This document shows positions 2,587-60,972 of a stretch of 60,972 nucleotides of DNA, piece after piece (position 1 is the stretch's first letter; the number at the start of each line of letters is the position of its first letter). Both the position numbers and the translations under genes were made by a program. Under the pieces are notes generated by a model. It made no database searches and was not told the origin of the DNA. It saw only the letters and a program-made list of their open reading frames with translations. Source of the DNA: a virus; the IMG/VR virus record IMGVR_UViG_3300027852_000043, positions 1 to 60,972 of that record; one strand, 5' to 3'.

Positions 2587-2668
2587 CGGGGACGGCGGGA
2601 GTTGAACCCGCAAAATAAAGAAGGGCCACAAACACCTTCCGCGGTAACCAATCCCCCGCTACATCCCC
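2587..2668 (-). tRNA. tRNA-like gene with a 10-nt anticodon loop
   Basis: On the minus strand there is a 7-bp acceptor stem (GGGGATG with CGTCCCC, one G-U pair), a 4-bp D stem (GCGG/CCGC) whose loop contains GG, a perfect 5-bp anticodon stem (GAAGG/CCTTC) in the correct position, and a canonical T arm (GCGGG, TTCAACT, CCCGC). The anticodon loop is 10 nt instead of 7 (TGTTTGTGGC), so the isotype cannot be read with certainty: a Thr (UGU) reading needs a mismatched stem, and His (GUG) fits worse. Either an odd functional tRNA or a decaying one. Confidence 0.6.
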
Positions 2669-5248: not shown

Positions 5249-5545
5249 TCATGAATCTTTTTCCGGGTAACACTCCCAACAATAAGGGCCTTCTTCATCT
5301 TTTGTGTAATTACTGTCTTCGCCTCTGCCGGCATTCCCGGTTAGTTCGCCACACTCGCAACAATACTCAAGAGTGCAACCATGGTAACGGGCGTTTACTT
5401 GGTCATGTTCGCTTTGGAATAAAGGTCTTACCCGCCCTAATTCTCTTTCTTCTTTTATTTCGTCTATCCAATCCATAGCCCAGCCCTCATAATGTGCCTC
5501 TCCCAGACACGTTCTCAGTCGTTCAACATGACTTTTGCTCGACAC
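5249..5545 (-). CDS. Zinc-ribbon-like protein, 98 aa
   Basis: The C-terminal half has a CCECGEL pair and a CWECYP pair separated by about 24 residues, consistent with one zinc site. The N-terminal half is helical and acidic. A GTG start at 5545 lies inside the 3' end of 5523-5678, indicating translational coupling. Function unknown. Confidence 0.6.
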   Translation of the reverse strand: MSSKSHVERLRTCLGEAHYEGWAMDWIDEIKEERELGRVRPLFQSEHDQVNARYHGCTLEYCCECGELTGNAGRGEDSNYTKDEEGPYCWECYPEKDS

Positions 5546-22687: not shown

Positions 22688-23147
22688 AAAAACTACACCA
22701 AAACCCCCGGTAGTGCGGCGGGCTAAAGCTGGACAACCGTCCAAAAAGGAATTAATAGACCTTGAATTACTAGAGGCGCTGTATTCATTTCGGCTAACAG
22801 ACGTAGAGGTTTGTAAAATTTTCAATATCTCGCCTGCGACCCTAACGAATTACAAAAAGGACGAAGAATTTTTCGCTATCATAAAAAAAGGGAAGCAAGT
22901 ATCTGATGACCGAGTCGAGAAATCATTATTTGAAAGGGCTGTAGGGTATGACCATCCGGAAGAGGACATCAGGGTCGTTAACGGTAAGATAGTCAAGACG
23001 GATATCATCAAACATTACCCGCCGGAAGTAGCTGCAATAATCTTCTGGCTAAAGAATCGAAAAAAGGATGAGTGGCGGGATAAGCAGGAGCATGGGCATA
23101 CGTTGGATCTTCCTCCAGGCCTAAAGGTAACATTTGAAAAGAAATGA
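22680..23147 (+). CDS. terS: Terminase small subunit
   Basis: 155 residues, next to and overlapping the large subunit. It has an N-terminal DNA-binding helix-turn-helix (DVEVCKIFNISPATLTNYKK) followed by a helical segment and VAAIIFWLKNRKKDEWRD, the pattern of phage small terminases that recognise the packaging site. GTG start at 22680. Confidence 0.8.
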   Translation: MAKKTTPKPPVVRRAKAGQPSKKELIDLELLEALYSFRLTDVEVCKIFNISPATLTNYKKDEEFFAIIKKGKQVSDDRVEKSLFERAVGYDHPEEDIRVVNGKIVKTDIIKHYPPEVAAIIFWLKNRKKDEWRDKQEHGHTLDLPPGLKVTFEKK

Positions 23148-24354
23148 GATCGAAGTCAAGCTCCCACCTAAGTTCCAGGGGTTATTTAAACCTGCAAGGT
23201 ACAAGATTTATTACGGAGGCAGGGGCGGGGCGAAGAGCCACAGCATAGCCACCGCGTTGGTTGCGAGGTCGCATTCTGAGCCGTTACGGATATTATGTAC
23301 CCGTGAGTTCCAAAGTTCCATCGCTGACTCAGTTCATAGACTACTCGCGGATAAAATTAACACCATGGGCCTGTCTGATTGGTTTACGGTCACACGGACG
23401 GAGATCACGTCCAGGGCCGGGAGTCAGTTCATCTTCAAAGGCCTGCGGCATTCGATTCAGGAGATAAAATCTACGGAGGGAATTGACATCGTTTGGGTAG
23501 AAGAAGCCCAGGTTATCTCTGAGAGTTCGTGGGAGGTTCTAATCCCTACGATCCGGAAAGCCCAATCGGAAATCTGGATATCTTTCAACCCGGACGAGGC
23601 ATTTGATCCGACATATCAGCGGTTCGTAGCCCACACGCCCCCAGGAAGTACCCTGGAGAAAGTGGGATGGGAGGACAACCCCTGGTTTCCCGATGTTCTG
23701 GATACTGAACGGCGGTACATGCTGGAGGTTGATCCGGAGGCATATGATCATGTTTGGGGTGGTAATTGCCGGACAATCAGCGATGCAGTGATATTTCGGG
23801 GCCGGGTGAGCGTTGAGACGTTTGATGAGCCGCCGGCGGATACTCGGTTGTATTACGGTTTGGATTATGGATTTGCAGTTTCCCCGACGGCATTTGTGCG
23901 GAGTTGGATACACGATGATACCCTGTATATTGACCACGAGGCTTGGGGTATAGGTGTTGAGTTAGACGATACACCTGATTTACTGGATACGGTTCCAGGG
24001 GCCAGGTCATGGCCTATCAAGGCGGATTCGGCCAGGCCAGAGACCACAAGTCATTTAAGGCGAAGAGGTTTTGACGTTTCATCCGCCGAAAAATGGCCGG
24101 GGAGCGTGGAAGACGGACTTGCTTTTTTAAAGAGTTTCCGGAAAATCATCGTGCATGAGCGATGCCCTCACGTGGCGGAAGAGTTCAGACTGTATTCGTA
24201 CAAAACGGATAAACAAACAAATGAGATCCTACCGATAATCATAAAACGGTGGGATAATTTCCCGGATGCGCTTAGATATAGTATGGTCGGATTAATCAGG
24301 CGGTCAAACGTCCTGGATGATGTAATTTACGAGGATTTTCCTGCAAAAACATGA
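23134..24354 (+). CDS. terL: Terminase large subunit (PBSX/Terminase_3 type)
   Basis: 406 residues. Walker A GGRGGAKS (28-35), Walker B IDIVWVEE (117-124) and coupling SFNP (150-153) define the ATPase. The nuclease domain has Asp244 (YYGLDYG), Asp298 (KADSARPE) and Asp374/378 (WDNFPDA). It translocates and cuts phage DNA at the portal. TTG start at 23134 within the small-subunit gene. Confidence 0.93.
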   Translation: MKRNEIEVKLPPKFQGLFKPARYKIYYGGRGGAKSHSIATALVARSHSEPLRILCTREFQSSIADSVHRLLADKINTMGLSDWFTVTRTEITSRAGSQFIFKGLRHSIQEIKSTEGIDIVWVEEAQVISESSWEVLIPTIRKAQSEIWISFNPDEAFDPTYQRFVAHTPPGSTLEKVGWEDNPWFPDVLDTERRYMLEVDPEAYDHVWGGNCRTISDAVIFRGRVSVETFDEPPADTRLYYGLDYGFAVSPTAFVRSWIHDDTLYIDHEAWGIGVELDDTPDLLDTVPGARSWPIKADSARPETTSHLRRRGFDVSSAEKWPGSVEDGLAFLKSFRKIIVHERCPHVAEEFRLYSYKTDKQTNEILPIIIKRWDNFPDALRYSMVGLIRRSNVLDDVIYEDFPAKT

Positions 24355-25704: not shown

Positions 25705-26016
25705 GTGTCTGATGTTAAGCGCACAGAGATTTGGGGGTGTAGCCGAAGGAATGCCAAGGAAATGACTCTGAGCTTTGATACGATAACTATAACCGCAGCC
25801 GAGGTGGGATTCCTGCAGGGCGGTAACAAACTCTTTTCAATGGAGATTACGCCTTCTTTTGAGACGGGAGGTATATTGGTCATAAAAGTTGCTGAAGGCA
25901 AGACAATACTAACGCTTGGCGATGTAGTAACGATTGTAGGAGGCGAAAATGATAGGTCTGGACGTCCAGTGCCCACAATGCCGACGGGTGATGCACACCA
26001 CTACCCCGCTGTATAA
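25705..26016 (+). CDS. Hypothetical strand-rich protein, 103 aa
   Basis: GTG start after a GGGGGAG site. Alternating hydrophobic/polar strands (TLSFDTITITAAEVGFL, ILVIKVAEGKTILTLG) suggest a beta domain. The last 20 residues overlap the next gene and look unstructured. Confidence 0.5.
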   Translation: MSDVKRTEIWGCSRRNAKEMTLSFDTITITAAEVGFLQGGNKLFSMEITPSFETGGILVIKVAEGKTILTLGDVVTIVGGENDRSGRPVPTMPTGDAHHYPAV

Positions 26017-26398
26017 TCCGGAAAAGACAGCCAAAGGCAACATGGTTGAACTGCTGCCCAAATGGAAAAAACGAGGATGGCGGACGTTCTACGGTGGAGG
26101 AGGCGGCACAACACCTGCGGCAGCTATGCAGTGCCCTCATTGCTCAGGGAGGTTGGCGCCGTCCGGGAAATTAAGGATTAAGCCTGCGCCTGTGCCGGAG
26201 CTAACACAGGCACAGAAGAATCAAGCGATTATTGATGAGAGTTTTAAGTTGGAGCCCGAACCGCAAGCCCAGGATGTCCAGCAGAAAATCCGGGCTCAAG
26301 ATACTATCTTCACATGCGAGTCTTGCGGTAGGCAGATAAGGGGCATTGTTGGGTTTAAATCGCACGAGAAAGCATGTAAGGTGGCTAATAATGGATGA
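25949..26398 (+). CDS. Multi-zinc-ribbon protein, 149 aa
   Basis: CPQC at the N-terminus, CPHC in the middle and a C-terminal CESCGRQI..H..C (C2H2-like) finger. A Gly-rich tract (YGGGGGTTP) separates the first two pairs. It immediately precedes and overlaps the portal gene. A nucleic-acid-binding head-assembly role is possible. Confidence 0.6.
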   Translation: MIGLDVQCPQCRRVMHTTTPLYNPEKTAKGNMVELLPKWKKRGWRTFYGGGGGTTPAAAMQCPHCSGRLAPSGKLRIKPAPVPELTQAQKNQAIIDESFKLEPEPQAQDVQQKIRAQDTIFTCESCGRQIRGIVGFKSHEKACKVANNG

Positions 26399-28316
26399 AA
26401 AATGGTCCCTTGAAACCCTACCTCCGAAAGGTCACAAAGACGTGGCCCCATTTTGCCTTGGCCTGTTTGATATAGCAAAAGCAGAGAAGGAGCGGCTAAA
26501 GAAGAATGAGGACGGGATCGCAAATTACAGCCTGTACCGTGGAAAATCACCAGCAGGCCAGGTGTCGAGGATCAAAAACCCTGTGAACCTGTATTTTTCA
26601 AACGTAGAGAGAACCGTGGCAAACATCACAAGTCGGAATCCGACTGGCGAGGTTGTCGATTTGGATGGGGTAGATGACGATGCTGAAAAAGTTCTGTCGG
26701 CCTGGTTACTCAAGTGGTGGAAAGATACAGGGCAGAGGGAGAAGACAAAAAAGTCAGGCCGAACGATGGAAGTTTACGGCGTGACGGTCGAAAAGCCCGG
26801 CTGGGATAAAGAGAAGGCCCGGCCCCACATCCGAGTTGAAGATCCTTTTGCATGGTTCCCGGCACCAGGTAGGTGGGAAAACGCACCCTTGGAAATGCCG
26901 TTTATGTGTTTTGTGTATCTCGATTATATTGACAAGGTTGAGTCGGAATATAAAGTCAAGGACATTGCGGAAGAAGACGCTTACACTCTATTGGGGGCTA
27001 TCAGGGAAGAGTATCAATCTGATTTTTCTGCAGAAAGTTTTGGTAATTACGCTACGCCAATAACGGCGGGGTCTAAAGCGCAGGGCACAGAAAAGAAGAT
27101 CGAACGGTGTCTAAAAATTGAAGTCTGGATGAGGGACAAAAGGACTAAGATAGTTACAACCGAAGAGCCGATGCTTGACGAGGAAACCGGGGAGATAGTG
27201 GTTAATGAACAGGGCGCGCCCTTAGTATGCAAAACCACAGAAAAGGTCCCGGTTTACCCGGATGGAGTAAGGGTCGTAACCATTGTTGCAGCCAAAGAGG
27301 GCACGGGCCAACATGACGGATACATGGTCCTGGAAGATTGCGCCAACCCAAACATAAACCCACTGGTTTCCACAGAATTGACGTCCAAAACTCATCCATG
27401 GAAGCGGTTCCCAATGTATTATGCTAATTCTTATGACGATCTGGTAACGGTGTGGGGGTTTTCAGCAGGGGAACAGGTCGGGGATTTAATACAGTATATC
27501 AATAAAATCATAGTCAAATTAATAGCTTATGTTATTAATGTGGTAGTACCGCCTTTGATCGTCCAGAAACACTGCGGGATCAAGCAATCAGATATTGAGT
27601 CTTGCCTCGAGAAAGGGGGGAGGTTGTTGTTAATGCCGAACATCCCCAACGCCCGCATCGAATTCATGCAAATACCCAATCTGCCGGCCACTTTCTTCCA
27701 GGTATTAGATCTTCTTGTCAGGTTTTTTGACAGGGTTTATGCCATGGAGGAAGCAGATCGAGGACAGGCCCCGAAAGGTGTTATCGCGGCTGCGGCAATT
27801 ATGGCGCTCCAGGAGAGGAACCAGGCACTTATGCAGCCCAAAACTGCGTCAATAGAATTTTTGGCAGAAAGCAGGTCAAAGTGGGCGATTGGGCTAATTC
27901 AGAATTTTGGGAGTAAAATGGAGTCTGTCGAGGTAGGGGATGAGCCTCGGGAATTCATAGGCGCGAATTTCATTGGCAGGCAGTTTGGGTATATCGTTGA
28001 AACCGGAAGCACAATGCCGAGAACATCTCTACAATTACAAGAGATAGCCCCGACCCTGTTTGAGGGCGGTCTCGTTGATAGACGGGCAGCATTGGAAATG
28101 TTGGGGATTCCTGATTGGCAAAACATCGTAGAGAGGATGGGCGAGACGGAGCTTGATCAGGCGCTACAAGTTTTGATAGAATCCGGGTTGCCTGAAGAGG
28201 AAGCGACGAGGTTACACCAATACTTAATACAGCCAGGCCAGGGCGTCGGTGGCTCGAAGACGGAGGAAACTGAATCACAGAAAGCCTCGGGTCCGGGTGT
28301 GCCGAAGGCGGTTTAA
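26391..28316 (+). CDS. Portal protein
   Basis: 641 residues, in the usual position after terminase and before scaffold/capsid. Conserved-looking features include NLYFSNVERTVANITSRNP, DPFAWFPAPG, a central stem-like region (VVPPLIVQK...) and a long helical C-terminal part, matching large podovirus-type portals. The start at 26391 overlaps the upstream stop. It forms the dodecameric DNA gate at one capsid vertex. Confidence 0.75.
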   Translation: MDEKWSLETLPPKGHKDVAPFCLGLFDIAKAEKERLKKNEDGIANYSLYRGKSPAGQVSRIKNPVNLYFSNVERTVANITSRNPTGEVVDLDGVDDDAEKVLSAWLLKWWKDTGQREKTKKSGRTMEVYGVTVEKPGWDKEKARPHIRVEDPFAWFPAPGRWENAPLEMPFMCFVYLDYIDKVESEYKVKDIAEEDAYTLLGAIREEYQSDFSAESFGNYATPITAGSKAQGTEKKIERCLKIEVWMRDKRTKIVTTEEPMLDEETGEIVVNEQGAPLVCKTTEKVPVYPDGVRVVTIVAAKEGTGQHDGYMVLEDCANPNINPLVSTELTSKTHPWKRFPMYYANSYDDLVTVWGFSAGEQVGDLIQYINKIIVKLIAYVINVVVPPLIVQKHCGIKQSDIESCLEKGGRLLLMPNIPNARIEFMQIPNLPATFFQVLDLLVRFFDRVYAMEEADRGQAPKGVIAAAAIMALQERNQALMQPKTASIEFLAESRSKWAIGLIQNFGSKMESVEVGDEPREFIGANFIGRQFGYIVETGSTMPRTSLQLQEIAPTLFEGGLVDRRAALEMLGIPDWQNIVERMGETELDQALQVLIESGLPEEEATRLHQYLIQPGQGVGGSKTEETESQKASGPGVPKAV

Positions 28317-29568: not shown

Positions 29569-30546
29569 ATGTCCTTACTAAACCAGTTAAACGCAACCAC
29601 GACAGTGAAATGGTTGAATACAACCCCCGAAGACATCCTTAACACAGCATCCGCCCTCGTTTGGAAATTGATGGGGAATGCTGTTAAGCGGGGTAATTGG
29701 GCGGTACAGCCCAGTGAGACAGTTGATGGCGGGAAAATGGTAGAGGTTCCGATTGAGTATGCAAACAGTAACTCTGGCCAGTACGGAGCCGATACGGTTA
29801 TCAGCATTGATAAAGTGGACCTCTTCGATGCTGCTCGGTTCGGGTGGGCAGGTGTTCATGGTGCCAACACCCTGAACCTGGACGATCTCACCCAAAATAC
29901 CGGCGGAAACGTTATCGTCAGGTTGACAGACAAGTATATCGATTCCATCAAGAAGGCTGCCAGAGTACAAATGGCTGCTGATGTGATTGCAGCGTCAACA
30001 GGCGTTGATTATCATATCAACGGTCTGGGTGATCTGTTTAATACCAATACTGCCATAGCATATGGAAGCATTACCGAAGCAGAAATGGCAAATTGGAAGG
30101 CAAACGTGATTACCACAAATGCGGAGATCTGCTTTGAGGTAATGCAAAAGATCTTCCGGGAGCCGGACATGGGAGGTTTCGCTGGGGCTCTCCCGAATTT
30201 CTGTGTCACGACCCAGGCCCTTCTGGACGGGTATGAGAGGACCTTGCAGCCTCAACAGTGGTATTCCGATAAGGATATGGTGTCTGCCGGGTGGGCGAAT
30301 GTTTGGCATAAAGGTGCGCCGATTGTTGCGGATAAGGGGGTTGGATCGACATCGCTTTATGCGTTGAACCTCAATTTCCTGAGTTTGAGAGCGCATGAAA
30401 AGTACAATTTCACCACACCTGTCTGGGCACCTGTATCAGTGCAGAAGCCAGATACCATCACCGCGAACACCAGGTTCAGGGGTAATCTGTACTGCACGAA
30501 TCGGCGTATGCATGCTTTACACAGCAACCTGTCAGAACCGACGTAA
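29569..30546 (+). CDS. Major capsid protein
   Basis: 325 residues, immediately after the scaffold. Sequence features fit the HK97-fold phage capsid group: N-terminal arm, VEVPIEYANSNSGQYGADT, ARFGWAGVHGANTLNLDDL, helical DKYIDSIKKAARVQMAADVI spine and C-terminal KPDTITANTRFRGNLYCTN. TAAGGAGG precedes the ATG. Confidence 0.82.
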   Translation: MSLLNQLNATTTVKWLNTTPEDILNTASALVWKLMGNAVKRGNWAVQPSETVDGGKMVEVPIEYANSNSGQYGADTVISIDKVDLFDAARFGWAGVHGANTLNLDDLTQNTGGNVIVRLTDKYIDSIKKAARVQMAADVIAASTGVDYHINGLGDLFNTNTAIAYGSITEAEMANWKANVITTNAEICFEVMQKIFREPDMGGFAGALPNFCVTTQALLDGYERTLQPQQWYSDKDMVSAGWANVWHKGAPIVADKGVGSTSLYALNLNFLSLRAHEKYNFTTPVWAPVSVQKPDTITANTRFRGNLYCTNRRMHALHSNLSEPT

Positions 30547-57368: not shown

Positions 57369-58331
57369 ATGTATAGCTATATGACCGGAAAATCCATAGA
57401 TGAACTCTTGATGGAACGGCGAACGATTGAGGACCTCATCAAGCAGAATTTCGAGCGCAAGCTGGCTATGCTATTTATTGACGTCTGGGGATACACCCAG
57501 TATGTCGAGACCAGAACAGCCGTCAATGGCCGGGCGATGCTCAAAGAGTTTTTCGATATCGTCAGCCCGATTATTGAAAAATACGCGGGTGTGCTGGTCA
57601 AGAAGATCGGCGATGAAGCTATGGTCGCGTTCACTTCGCCCGTATCAGCGGCACGGGCCTCCATCGCAATGCAGCAGGGGCTCGCTGAATATAACAGGCA
57701 GGTTACAAAGCAGAACCGGATACACGCAAAGATCGGGGTTGATTATGGCGAGGTCTTGGTTGAGGACAAAGACATACATGGAGACACAGTAAATGTGGCT
57801 TCTCGTGTGACGAGTCTGGCAGGCAAGGACCAGATATTGTTCACCGGGTTTGCATGGGTACCTACCCGAGACGTCGAAGGGGTTGTTTTCCGGGATTACG
57901 GGGTCGTTACACTGAAGGGCAAAGCGGAGCCTGTCAACCTCTACGAGCTGGTCTGGCGCGATGATAGAAGTCTACCCAGGGTAGGGCCACAAAAAGAAAC
58001 AGCGCCGCCAATACCTGCGGCTATTATCGAAAATGGCCAATTCGATTCCTTGACCAGGTACCTGGATTTGATCTATGATACACAGCGTCAACATGCTGCG
58101 ACTATCGGGAAGTTGTTTGACAAACTGGATGCGCAAGGGAAGGCTATCGCAAAATGTGAACCACGGCTCGATGCCTTGGAAAAGCTCACTTCCGAAGAGC
58201 TTAAACCTGCGGTAGAGGCCCACACAAAAAGTCTTTCCCGGATAACGGGGGCGCCTCTTTTTGTTAGTTTCCTTTTGGGTCTTGGCGCGTTATTGGCTAT
58301 GTTTTTAGCATGGTTTGGATTTAAGAATTAA
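57369..58331 (+). CDS. Class III nucleotidyl cyclase with C-terminal membrane anchor
   Basis: 320 residues. The catalytic homology domain spans about 30-200: metal Asp38 (FIDVWGYT), Lys78 and metal Asp82 (VKKIGDEAM), Asp135 (DIHGDTVNVASR), Asn142 and Arg146. Lys78/Asp135 is the adenine-selecting pair, so cAMP is the predicted product. A linker (205-285) with a helical segment leads to one transmembrane helix (about 296-316). An ATG at 57381 is an alternative start. At the distal end of the late operon, it probably alters host signalling or lysis timing. Confidence 0.88.
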   Translation: MYSYMTGKSIDELLMERRTIEDLIKQNFERKLAMLFIDVWGYTQYVETRTAVNGRAMLKEFFDIVSPIIEKYAGVLVKKIGDEAMVAFTSPVSAARASIAMQQGLAEYNRQVTKQNRIHAKIGVDYGEVLVEDKDIHGDTVNVASRVTSLAGKDQILFTGFAWVPTRDVEGVVFRDYGVVTLKGKAEPVNLYELVWRDDRSLPRVGPQKETAPPIPAAIIENGQFDSLTRYLDLIYDTQRQHAATIGKLFDKLDAQGKAIAKCEPRLDALEKLTSEELKPAVEAHTKSLSRITGAPLFVSFLLGLGALLAMFLAWFGFKN

Positions 58332-58848: not shown

Positions 58849-59100
58849 TTACCAGTTGGGGTTTTTCTCATGTGCGTATTTATGAGCTGCATCTTTAGTA
58901 TCGAATACTTTATCGATAAAGTCAGACACGGGGGAAATTGAAGATAGAAACTTTTGTTTGTCAAAGTTTTCACCATCCCAATATGCAGCATCTGGAAAAT
59001 GGCCCTCCTCTGGTTCCCAACATATCAACACCGCATACCACCCTCTTTGTTTTGGCCTTGGGTCGTTGATATCATACACGCTAATGAATTCTGTATCCAT
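58849..59100 (-). CDS. Hypothetical protein, 83 aa
   Basis: Contains RPKQRGWYAVLICWEPEEGH and AYWDGENFDKQKF, a layout seen in small phage proteins of unknown function. A 57-bp repeat identical to the leader and first codons of 59784-60017 lies immediately upstream, so its own leader has been replaced. Confidence 0.6.
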   Translation of the reverse strand: MDTEFISVYDINDPRPKQRGWYAVLICWEPEEGHFPDAAYWDGENFDKQKFLSSISPVSDFIDKVFDTKDAAHKYAHEKNPNW

Positions 59101-59157
59101 TACTCCCTATTTTACTGAATTCCATATATTTGCTTCCAACCATACCGGTCTCCTTTT
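59101..59157. repeat. 57-bp direct repeat, copy 1
   Basis: Identical over 57 bp to 59975-60031. On the minus strand it contains a GGAG ribosome site, ATG and first 14 codons of gene 59784-60017; here the frame closes after 20 codons. Copies bracket the attC cassette block. Confidence 0.85.
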
Positions 59158-59207
59158 CTGTTACTGTTTGCTCAACATTCGATCGGCGATAACCCTGGGG
59201 AGCACCA

Positions 59208-59259
59208 CCATAACACTCATTGCCACTGTTCATTAGGCAATGAAATCAACTGGTTAGCG
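59208..59259 (-). other. Degenerate attC-like site
   Basis: R''-like CGCTAAC (59259-59253) directly abuts the R' box of the next site; a 7-bp CATTGCC/GGCAATG stem and R'-like GTTATGG (59214-59208) follow. Spacer lengths on the two arms differ (10 and 3 nt), so the site is incomplete. Confidence 0.4.
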
Positions 59260-59319
59260 GTATAACGTTAAGCTGACTTACCACGGCTTCTTGTGGGTAA
59301 GTCCAGCGGCTGGTTAGGA
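59260..59319 (-). other. attC-type recombination site
   Basis: Minus strand: R'' TCCTAAC, spacer CAGCC, L'' GCT(G)GACTTAC with extrahelical G, 10-bp stem with one bulge, 8-nt loop, L' GTAAGTC-AGC, spacer TTAAC, R' GTTATAC. It follows all rules for integron attC sites and overlaps the 3' end of the upstream cassette gene. Confidence 0.8.
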
Positions 59320-59459
59320 GTAATACCGTGTGTTACGTGTGCCGCGGGCCAATGTCCGCAGTCTTCACATACTCGTTTACCCTTCAACGCTGGTTTACGT
59401 TTTCCATCTTGAATTATTGGTTTAAAAATAATTTTTCCCCCGCACTTTTCACATTTCAT
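59268..59459 (-). CDS. Cassette gene: zinc-ribbon protein, 63 aa
   Basis: CEKCGGKI and CEDCGHW pairs form a zinc ribbon. The ATG at 59459 lies 10 nt after the R' box of the preceding attC; the last 17 codons are inside the attC at 59260-59319. Function unknown. Layout is that of an integron cassette. Confidence 0.65.
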   Translation of the reverse strand: MKCEKCGGKIIFKPIIQDGKRKPALKGKRVCEDCGHWPAAHVTHGITPNQPLDLPTRSRGKSA

Positions 59460-59469
59460 TACTTTAATC

Positions 59470-59525
59470 TCTTAACGCTAAGATCAGCCGCCGGGTCTTC
59501 GGTCGGCTGCATTTGTTGGTTATAA
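59470..59525 (-). other. attC-type recombination site
   Basis: R'' TTATAAC, spacer CAACA, L'' AAT(G)CAGCCG with extrahelical G, inner CCG/CGG pair, 6-nt loop, L' CGGCTGATC, spacer TTAGC, R' GTTAAGA. The 3-nt, extra base, stem order equals that of the other sites. Confidence 0.8.
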
Positions 59526-59726
59526 GATTTCTAATATCACCGCATCACCAACATACGAATGACCGGTATCCCGGTAAAACCACCATTTGTCAAAACCCTC
59601 AACCGCAACAGATACATCGTCCGCGTCTATGATTTCATATTCGTAGAATCCAGATGGCAACATCACATTGCCAGATTTGTTGTGGACCTTGACCCTGTCA
59701 CCTTTTTTTAAAGTTCCGAGTTCCAT
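59520..59726 (-). CDS. Cassette gene, hypothetical 68 aa
   Basis: Small beta-barrel-like protein (LKKGDRVKVHNKSGNVMLPS, EYEIIDADDVSVAVEGF). AAGGAGC, contained in the R' region of the preceding attC, provides the ribosome site; its TAA lies in the R'' box of the following attC. Unknown function. Confidence 0.65.
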   Translation of the reverse strand: MELGTLKKGDRVKVHNKSGNVMLPSGFYEYEIIDADDVSVAVEGFDKWWFYRDTGHSYVGDAVILEIL

Positions 59727-59739
59727 TTAGAATTGCTCC

Positions 59740-59797
59740 TTATAACAGGTTGATCACCAGTGCGGCCCTTGGCATCTGGTGGATTAACTGGTTGTGC
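59740..59797 (-). other. attC-type recombination site
   Basis: R'' GCACAAC, spacer CAGTT, L'' AATC(C)ACCAG with one extra C, 15-nt loop, L' CTGGTGATC, spacer AACCT, R' GTTATAA. It overlaps the 3' end of gene 59784-60017. Confidence 0.75.
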
Positions 59798-60017
59798 GCC
59801 TCTGAGCCATTAGTTCGAAAATCATTTTTTTGATATCATCCATGCAATCGGTGTTAAATACGCAATTGGCGGAAGGGAAAAAACAGTATTGTCGCCATGC
59901 CCCATACCATTTAATTGTACCTAAAATAAATCCCGATGACTTAGAAAGAATGTCCCAAATATCTGTTTTCCCCGTACTCCCTATTTTACTGAATTCCATA
60001 TATTTGCTTCCAACCAT
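59784..60017 (-). CDS. Cassette gene, conserved phage protein, 77 aa
   Basis: LGTIKWYGAWRQYCFFPSAN and NTDCMDDIKKMIFEL are characteristic of a small protein family found in many phages and plasmids, without known function. AAAAGGAG precedes the ATG. Its leader and first codons occur a second time at 59101-59157. Confidence 0.65.
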   Translation of the reverse strand: MVGSKYMEFSKIGSTGKTDIWDILSKSSGFILGTIKWYGAWRQYCFFPSANCVFNTDCMDDIKKMIFELMAQRRTTS

Positions 60018-60031
60018 ACCGGTCTCCTTTT
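59975..60031. repeat. 57-bp direct repeat, copy 2
   Basis: Identical to 59101-59157. It includes the ribosome site and N-terminal codons of gene 59784-60017, of which it is an integral part; the other copy is therefore derived. Confidence 0.85.
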
Positions 60032-60230
60032 ATGGCCGTGGTTGCTTAAAAACCCACCAATCTTGAATAAATGGCTCTTGGCCTACCCAATGTTTTTGGG
60101 TATACCCAACGAATTCCCACCCCTGCTTATCCATTAAATTGAGCCAGGATTCCATGTCTCTATTATCCATCACAGGTGACTTTGCGTTTTGTGGTAAGTC
60201 CGGTTGCGTACATTTGTATTTATATCTCAT
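60030..60230 (-). CDS. DUF4177-like small protein, 66 aa
   Basis: ESWLNLMDKQGWEFVGYTQ and FIQDWWVFKQP have the pattern of DUF4177-type proteins (W/LN..G.EGWE.V). Start at 60230 chosen; longer frames to 60524 overlap gene 60295-60708. Function unknown. Confidence 0.6.
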   Translation of the reverse strand: MRYKYKCTQPDLPQNAKSPVMDNRDMESWLNLMDKQGWEFVGYTQKHWVGQEPFIQDWWVFKQPRP

Positions 60231-60238
60231 AACTGCTC

Positions 60239-60292
60239 TCACCCCTCGCATATCCCAACAAAGATACTCCTGTACTTTAGCTCCAAAGCCAT
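60239..60292 (-). pseudogene. Remnant of the 3' end of gene 60738-60972
   Basis: A 17-codon frame reading MALELKYRSIFVGICEG matches the C-terminus of the product of 60738-60972 (EALEVKHRSIFIGICEGE); bases 60241-60275 are close to 60743-60777. A fragment left by duplication or homologous recombination. Confidence 0.6.
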
Positions 60293-60737: not shown

Positions 60738-60972
60738 CTATTCCCCCTCGCATATCCCAATAAAAATACTTCTGTGCTTCACCTCCAACGCCTCCAGCGT
60801 CTTTGCCAGCTCATCCAGTTCTTTCAGGTCGGCCTTTGCGTCGTCCGTTTTCGGGTCACACTCTGCGATCCCCTCCAGTAGCAGTATGGGGATATCGGAC
60901 AGATGCGACCAGGCAAGGGAGAACTGGTCTTTGATGTACATATCTGTTAATTTTTCTCTGGAAAACGGGACC
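60738..60972 (-). CDS. 3' part of hypothetical gene that crosses the window ends
   Basis: Continues the frame that begins at 93 on the left. The visible part encodes an acidic helical region (DDAKADLKELDELAKTLEAL) and ends in KHRSIFIGICEGE. A shorter frame starts at an ATG at 60941, but the codons upstream of it are in frame with the left-end sequence, so that ATG is internal. Function unknown. Confidence 0.7.
   Translation of the reverse strand, partial: VPFSREKLTDMYIKDQFSLAWSHLSDIPILLLEGIAECDPKTDDAKADLKELDELAKTLEALEVKHRSIFIGICEGE
60945..60972. repeat. Right copy of terminal direct repeat
   Basis: Same 28 bases as 1-28 except T for C at the tenth position. See the left copy for interpretation. 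Confidence 0.85.

Follow-up and report, generated by a model that had tools for sequence, protein, structure and literature searches.

The genome of an uncultivated tailed phage very probably carries a cluster of integron gene cassettes that lacks an integrase of its own (a CALIN) and that would be acted on in trans by an integrase of the host. The genome is IMGVR_UViG_3300027852_000043, an entire IMG/VR record of 60,972 bases that is classed as linear; it was analysed over its whole length and is referred to here as the window. An initial annotation had proposed an integron-like cassette array without an integrase at 59208–60033, and this reading is supported by the top ranks of the sites in a covariance model search, by covariation in the attC fold, by the phage genes on the record, and by the absence of a tyrosine recombinase or integron integrase. 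The extent then given to the array was incomplete, however, as the strongest attC site of the window (8277–8336) and a second cluster around it were missed.

Matches to PHROG families identify hallmark genes of tailed phages, namely those for the terminase large subunit (23134–24354), the portal (26346–28316) and the major head protein (29569–30546). The phage also encodes a RecE-like exonuclease (∼10.0–10.7 kb) and a NinB/Orf-like protein (∼9.4–9.8 kb); a scan of viral contigs with the NinB protein gave two weak matches and no close relatives. Most of the large genes, from ∼15 kb to 58.5 kb, are oriented rightward, and small leftward genes are found at the left end of the record and again at 58.8–61 kb. 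These two small-gene regions may be one continuous region; a terminal repeat was looked for in the record and none was found. The left region contains a tRNA-Thr gene (anticodon TGT; 2587–2668, minus strand) as well as a gene (1080–1817) whose product matches PHROG 2045, a family of unknown function (E-value 7e-91), and a similar protein was seen by eye in an attC-bearing phage record, L211. Adjoining the array, the gene at 57369–58331 codes for what we identified by eye as a class III nucleotide cyclase-like protein with a C-terminal membrane segment, and a pattern scan of viral contigs recovered no relatives of it. We also note a 49-bp repeat (86%; 60242–60290 and 60744–60792) among the neighbouring small leftward genes.

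In the established mechanism, the bottom strand of attC folds and is bound by an integron integrase, which cuts between the G and the TT in the R' box. Three sites with attC anatomy are present on the minus strand near the right end of the window: A (59740–59797), B (59470–59525) and C (59260–59319). In each of them the R'' box has a terminal AAC and the R' box an initial GTT, cores that are also present in a fourth site, E, described below, and the core-box consensus (R'' RYYYAAC, R' GTTRRRY) is matched at 11–12 of 14 positions in A–C. The structural finder places spacers of 5–6 nt on both arms of all three, and the 5' arm carries one extra unpaired base, which follows paired base two or three; the initial annotation had this shape correctly, although it gave the spacers uniformly as 5 nt and set the extra base after the third nucleotide. 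Sites A, B and C span 540 bp on one strand with genes 2 and 3 between them, and so agree with the definition of a CALIN as at least two sites in one orientation. The two attC-bounded cassettes, those of genes 2 and 3, are near the minimum for an array, and the cluster lies no more than 1.8 kb from the contig end.

One attC-shaped site had been assigned to each of the three genes. The first two assignments stand and correspond to A and B, whereas the third, a minus-strand hairpin at 59208–59259, scores at background, and the true third site is C. This hairpin has no spacer beside R', is not matched by covariance model R2 and reaches 10.9 bits (E-value 2.8) with model R3 (both described below); it is either a degenerate attC-like sequence or a chance hairpin. 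Site C resembles a sequence in another phage (L002:8526–8586). Folding of single sites as DNA, which the initial annotation had put forward as a check, bore out B (z-score −4.3) as the only significant case, with z-scores of −0.7 for A and −1.5 for the hairpin at 59208–59259.

The sites were scored with a structural rule and with covariance models. The rule was written from established attC anatomy and calls, in order, for R'', a spacer of 5–7 nt, an outer stem of 2–3 pairs, a single extra base in the 5' arm, an inner stem of 5 or more pairs, a spacer and R'. Of its matches scoring 24 or higher, 52 lie on the expected strand upstream of integron integrases and 7 lie elsewhere. Its three best matches in the window are C (30.6), B (25.5) and A (24.9), all on the minus strand. 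Dinucleotide shuffles of the window (150 in total) contained a mean of 0.73 matches at the score of site A or better, and three matches on one strand within 600 bp were found in none of the 150 shuffled windows. A first covariance model, R1, based on 26 bacterial sites, was dropped as too strict, with the window sites either borderline or without a score, and was retrained as R2. This is a model of our own construction that uses 97 bacterial attC sites, all from arrays beside integron integrases. Applied to both strands of the whole window with filters off, R2 ranks as its top four matches E (37.3 bits, E-value 7.6e-7), C (26.1 bits, 4e-4), B (22.8 bits, 0.0027) and A (15.9 bits, 0.13), all on the minus strand, the E-values being rough because calibration was shortened. 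Background scores at every site, the outcome that the initial annotation had named as contrary to its claim, were thus not seen.

Outside its training data R2 found 175 sites in integrase-bearing viral records, nearly all on the expected strand, and as to specificity, 28 of 29 other loci and 24 of 30 terminase relatives of the window gave no match. The score of just 15.9 bits that this independent model assigns to site A counts against the CALIN reading. With a further model, R3, site A scores 31.3 bits; A is outside the R3 training set, and B, C and E were included in it, so R3 provides no evidence for those three. When 29 phage sites were aligned, covariation in the attC fold was 0.428, compared to 0.142 in shuffled and at most 0.10 in slid controls, and 79 double-change cells were counted versus 30 in shuffles, both values coming from an alignment that had been fitted to the model. 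A search of Rfam at gathering thresholds matched no family.

The three small leftward open reading frames are present as originally claimed, all on the minus strand. Gene 1 (59784–60017; 77 aa) is followed by site A, gene 2 (59520–59726; 68 aa) forms the cassette between A and B, and gene 3 (59268–59459; 63 aa), which encodes two CxxC motifs, forms that between B and C. The gene stops were said to fall in the R'' boxes, and this is so for gene 2, with its stop inside R'' of B, but not for the others: gene 1 stops in the R''-side spacer, and the 3' end of gene 3 overlaps site C, running through R'' to a stop (59268–59270) in the R'-side spacer. Gene 1 encodes a member of a family of phage proteins with an invariant WYGAWRQY motif that we found on 26 viral contigs, the majority of them without attC nearby. 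Its predicted fold consists of four strands and a C-terminal helix (pLDDT 93), and a fold search against the PDB gave no significant match (best E-value 0.45). Gene 3 has two viral relatives, with 60% identity over residues 3–47. No confident family was assigned to the cassette genes from Pfam, PHROG or NCBIfam, and nothing points to resistance genes among the cassettes. In the comparison with integron cassettes proposed at the outset, the bacterial integron loci we fetched contained nothing that matches genes 1–3. The cassettes are probably transcribed with the leftward phage operon.

A 75-bp direct repeat flanks the array, with minus-strand copies at 59101–59175 and 59975–60049 that are 91% identical. 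The latter copy is at the start of gene 1; through the former, the sequence preceding gene 1 and the gene's first codons also stand immediately ahead of the open reading frame at 58849–59100. This repeat shows ordinary recombination at work here too. The arrangement gives the impression that there was once a second gene 1 copy that has been overwritten.

No match to PF00589 or TIGR02249 was found in the record, in accord with the initial statement that the window contains no tyrosine recombinase, and the intI gene that marks a complete integron is absent from it. Likewise, none of 15 related or attC-bearing phage records encodes an integron integrase above the family cut-off. The tyrosine recombinase of phage G001, a candidate for such an enzyme, was rejected on its score of 41.9 bits, the cut-off being 265. 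As the window phage has no integrase, any recombination at its sites needs one supplied by the host.

The second attC cluster, at ∼7.3–9.0 kb, is partly decayed. It contains site E (8277–8336, minus strand), the best-scoring site of the window, which fits R2 with a single-base insertion in its 5' arm. A small open reading frame of 43 aa (8331–8462, minus strand) has its stop inside the R'' box of E, and another of 62 aa (8072–8260, minus strand) starts just past the R' box and is a presumptive cassette gene. A truncated attC on the minus strand at 7564–7593 is a 30-nt exact copy of the 5' half of E, the 3' half having been lost; the exact repeat is at minus-strand positions 8332 and 7593. A weak minus-strand site at 8935–8993 comes next after the top four in the R2 search (12.5 bits, E-value 0.86), scores 16.1 bits with R3 (E-value 0.09) and is probably decayed. 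The presence of several decayed sites suggests that this cluster is a passive remnant. Site E adjoins the phage HNH, NinB and exonuclease genes in the interior of the record.

The nearest terminase relatives of the window phage also carry attC arrays. Sites of any kind are present in six of 30 terminase-relative records, two of the six having a single weak match. G401, whose terminase is the closest match in IMG/VR (73%), has a head module syntenic with that of the window and 8–9 attC sites by R2 at 0.1–3.6 kb of its contig. Their position is comparable to that of the 59-kb cluster of the window: both converge with the late genes, although the genes at that junction are dissimilar. An attC-flanked gene of G401 (262–531) has a homologue with 60–63% identity at 5249–5545 of the window, where it is without attC. 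G403 (terminase 68%) has four attC sites, and two of these (7306–7362 and 8256–8316) bound an insert between homologues of the window genes 25949–26398 and 26346–28316. In the window these head genes overlap at 26346–26398, which makes it the unoccupied arrangement of the G403 insert. No site was found by R2 in G404 (67%) and 23 other terminase relatives.

A different phage, G001, has a gene 70% identical to gene 1 and an array of 6 sites by R2, or ∼19 by R3, at 24–35 kb on one strand, with phage genes flanking the array on both sides. An 86-nt element of G001 (L002 7897–7982 and 8268–8353; 95% identical) is present on either side of the gene 1 homologue, and a third copy (L002 4646–4731) is 60% alike; the element ends in an R'-like GACGTTA and is not a standard attC. 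More broadly, relatives of the integron integrase are encoded on at least 272 IMG/VR records, and attC arrays are present on many of the 80 top-ranked ones (L121–L200). In L206, a phage record with portal and tail genes, attC sites at 10433–12773 flank larger genes, judged by eye to be cytosine methyltransferase-like and PAPS-reductase-like. An exact pattern for the attC subtype of the window was found in just one of 395 genomes of one phylum, and no host is therefore named from it.

As a model for the behaviour of these cassettes, we propose that the bottom strand of the hairpins would be recognised by an integron integrase from the host or from a co-resident element, and that this enzyme would insert, remove or shuffle cassettes. 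Phage recombination, through the RecE-like exonuclease and the NinB-like protein, could also move them, and cassettes that are retained would turn into ordinary phage genes with the decay of their attC sites. The proposal in the initial annotation that the phage acquires cargo by integron recombination fits what is seen in G401 and G403. Five of six attC sites tested from virulent phages were recombined by IntI1, as was a bacterial control (PMC9892861), and the cassettes of integrase-less clusters can be captured by integrases in trans (PMC9668308). We therefore favour acquisition via host integrons, followed by decay of the sites at genes that are retained.

An alternative that we regard as possible, if somewhat improbable, is that the sites are inert fossils of a single entry of cassettes through recombination with host DNA, either homologous or illegitimate, and that no integron recombination takes place in the phage. 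The truncated half copy at 7564–7593 and the weak sites are consistent with such an origin, as are the lack of an integrase and the rarity of sites among the terminase relatives, and the 75-bp repeat can be viewed as an ordinary duplication. However, B, C and E retain all the features of attC, and different cassettes are present at different places in relatives. It is rather unlikely that the lineage keeps attC as a working gene-acquisition system, with virulent phages trading cassettes via a host integrase at several places, between head genes among them. That the array is the bacterial host's own, at a chimeric contig end or at a prophage boundary in a chromosomal integron, we consider very unlikely: the first cluster is at the end of a linear record and the cassettes show few phage-specific features, but the best attC site is beside phage genes in the record interior, G401 and G403 share the head module and likewise carry arrays, the G001 array sits between phage genes, and the window is without an integrase. 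Finally, there is scarcely any likelihood that ordinary terminators or chance palindromes account for the hairpins. Hairpins between small phage genes are common and the folding of A and of 59208–59259 is unremarkable, but the sites match attC in their boxes, in their spacers and in the extra unpaired base, and the R2 ranks, the covariation, the uniform strand and the lack of a fitting Rfam family also speak against this reading.

Qi et al. (2023, PMC9892861) described integron components in 21 phages out of a set of 10,705 deposited genomes, and integrase-less attC clusters in phages have been known since that report, so the array is not a new category. It is like those phage CALINs, which include ones in virulent phages, in having attC clusters without an integrase and small cassette genes in one orientation; it differs in belonging to an uncultivated virus with two clusters, one of them decaying, whose nearest relatives have different arrays. 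Chromosomal arrays and bacterial CALINs (IntegronFinder, PMC9024848) are similar in attC anatomy, model score, uniform orientation and the presence of one site per small gene, whereas the window array has no integrase and few sites and is in a phage. Viral records of phages and proviruses that have a complete integron (Shewanella phage M16-3; L121–L200) likewise bear attC arrays but, unlike the window phage, encode an integron integrase. A literature search, excluding preprints and most subscription journals, found no papers on integrase-less phage attC clusters later than PMC9892861.

The notable part of these findings is that different arrays recur in close relatives within one lineage, including as an insert between head genes. 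They support a role of phages as carriers of integron cassettes, and the window together with G401, G403 and G404 provides a comparative set for tracing the gain, loss and decay of cassettes in a single lineage. Should the sites prove active, phages that lack an integrase could carry cassettes between the integrons of different hosts.
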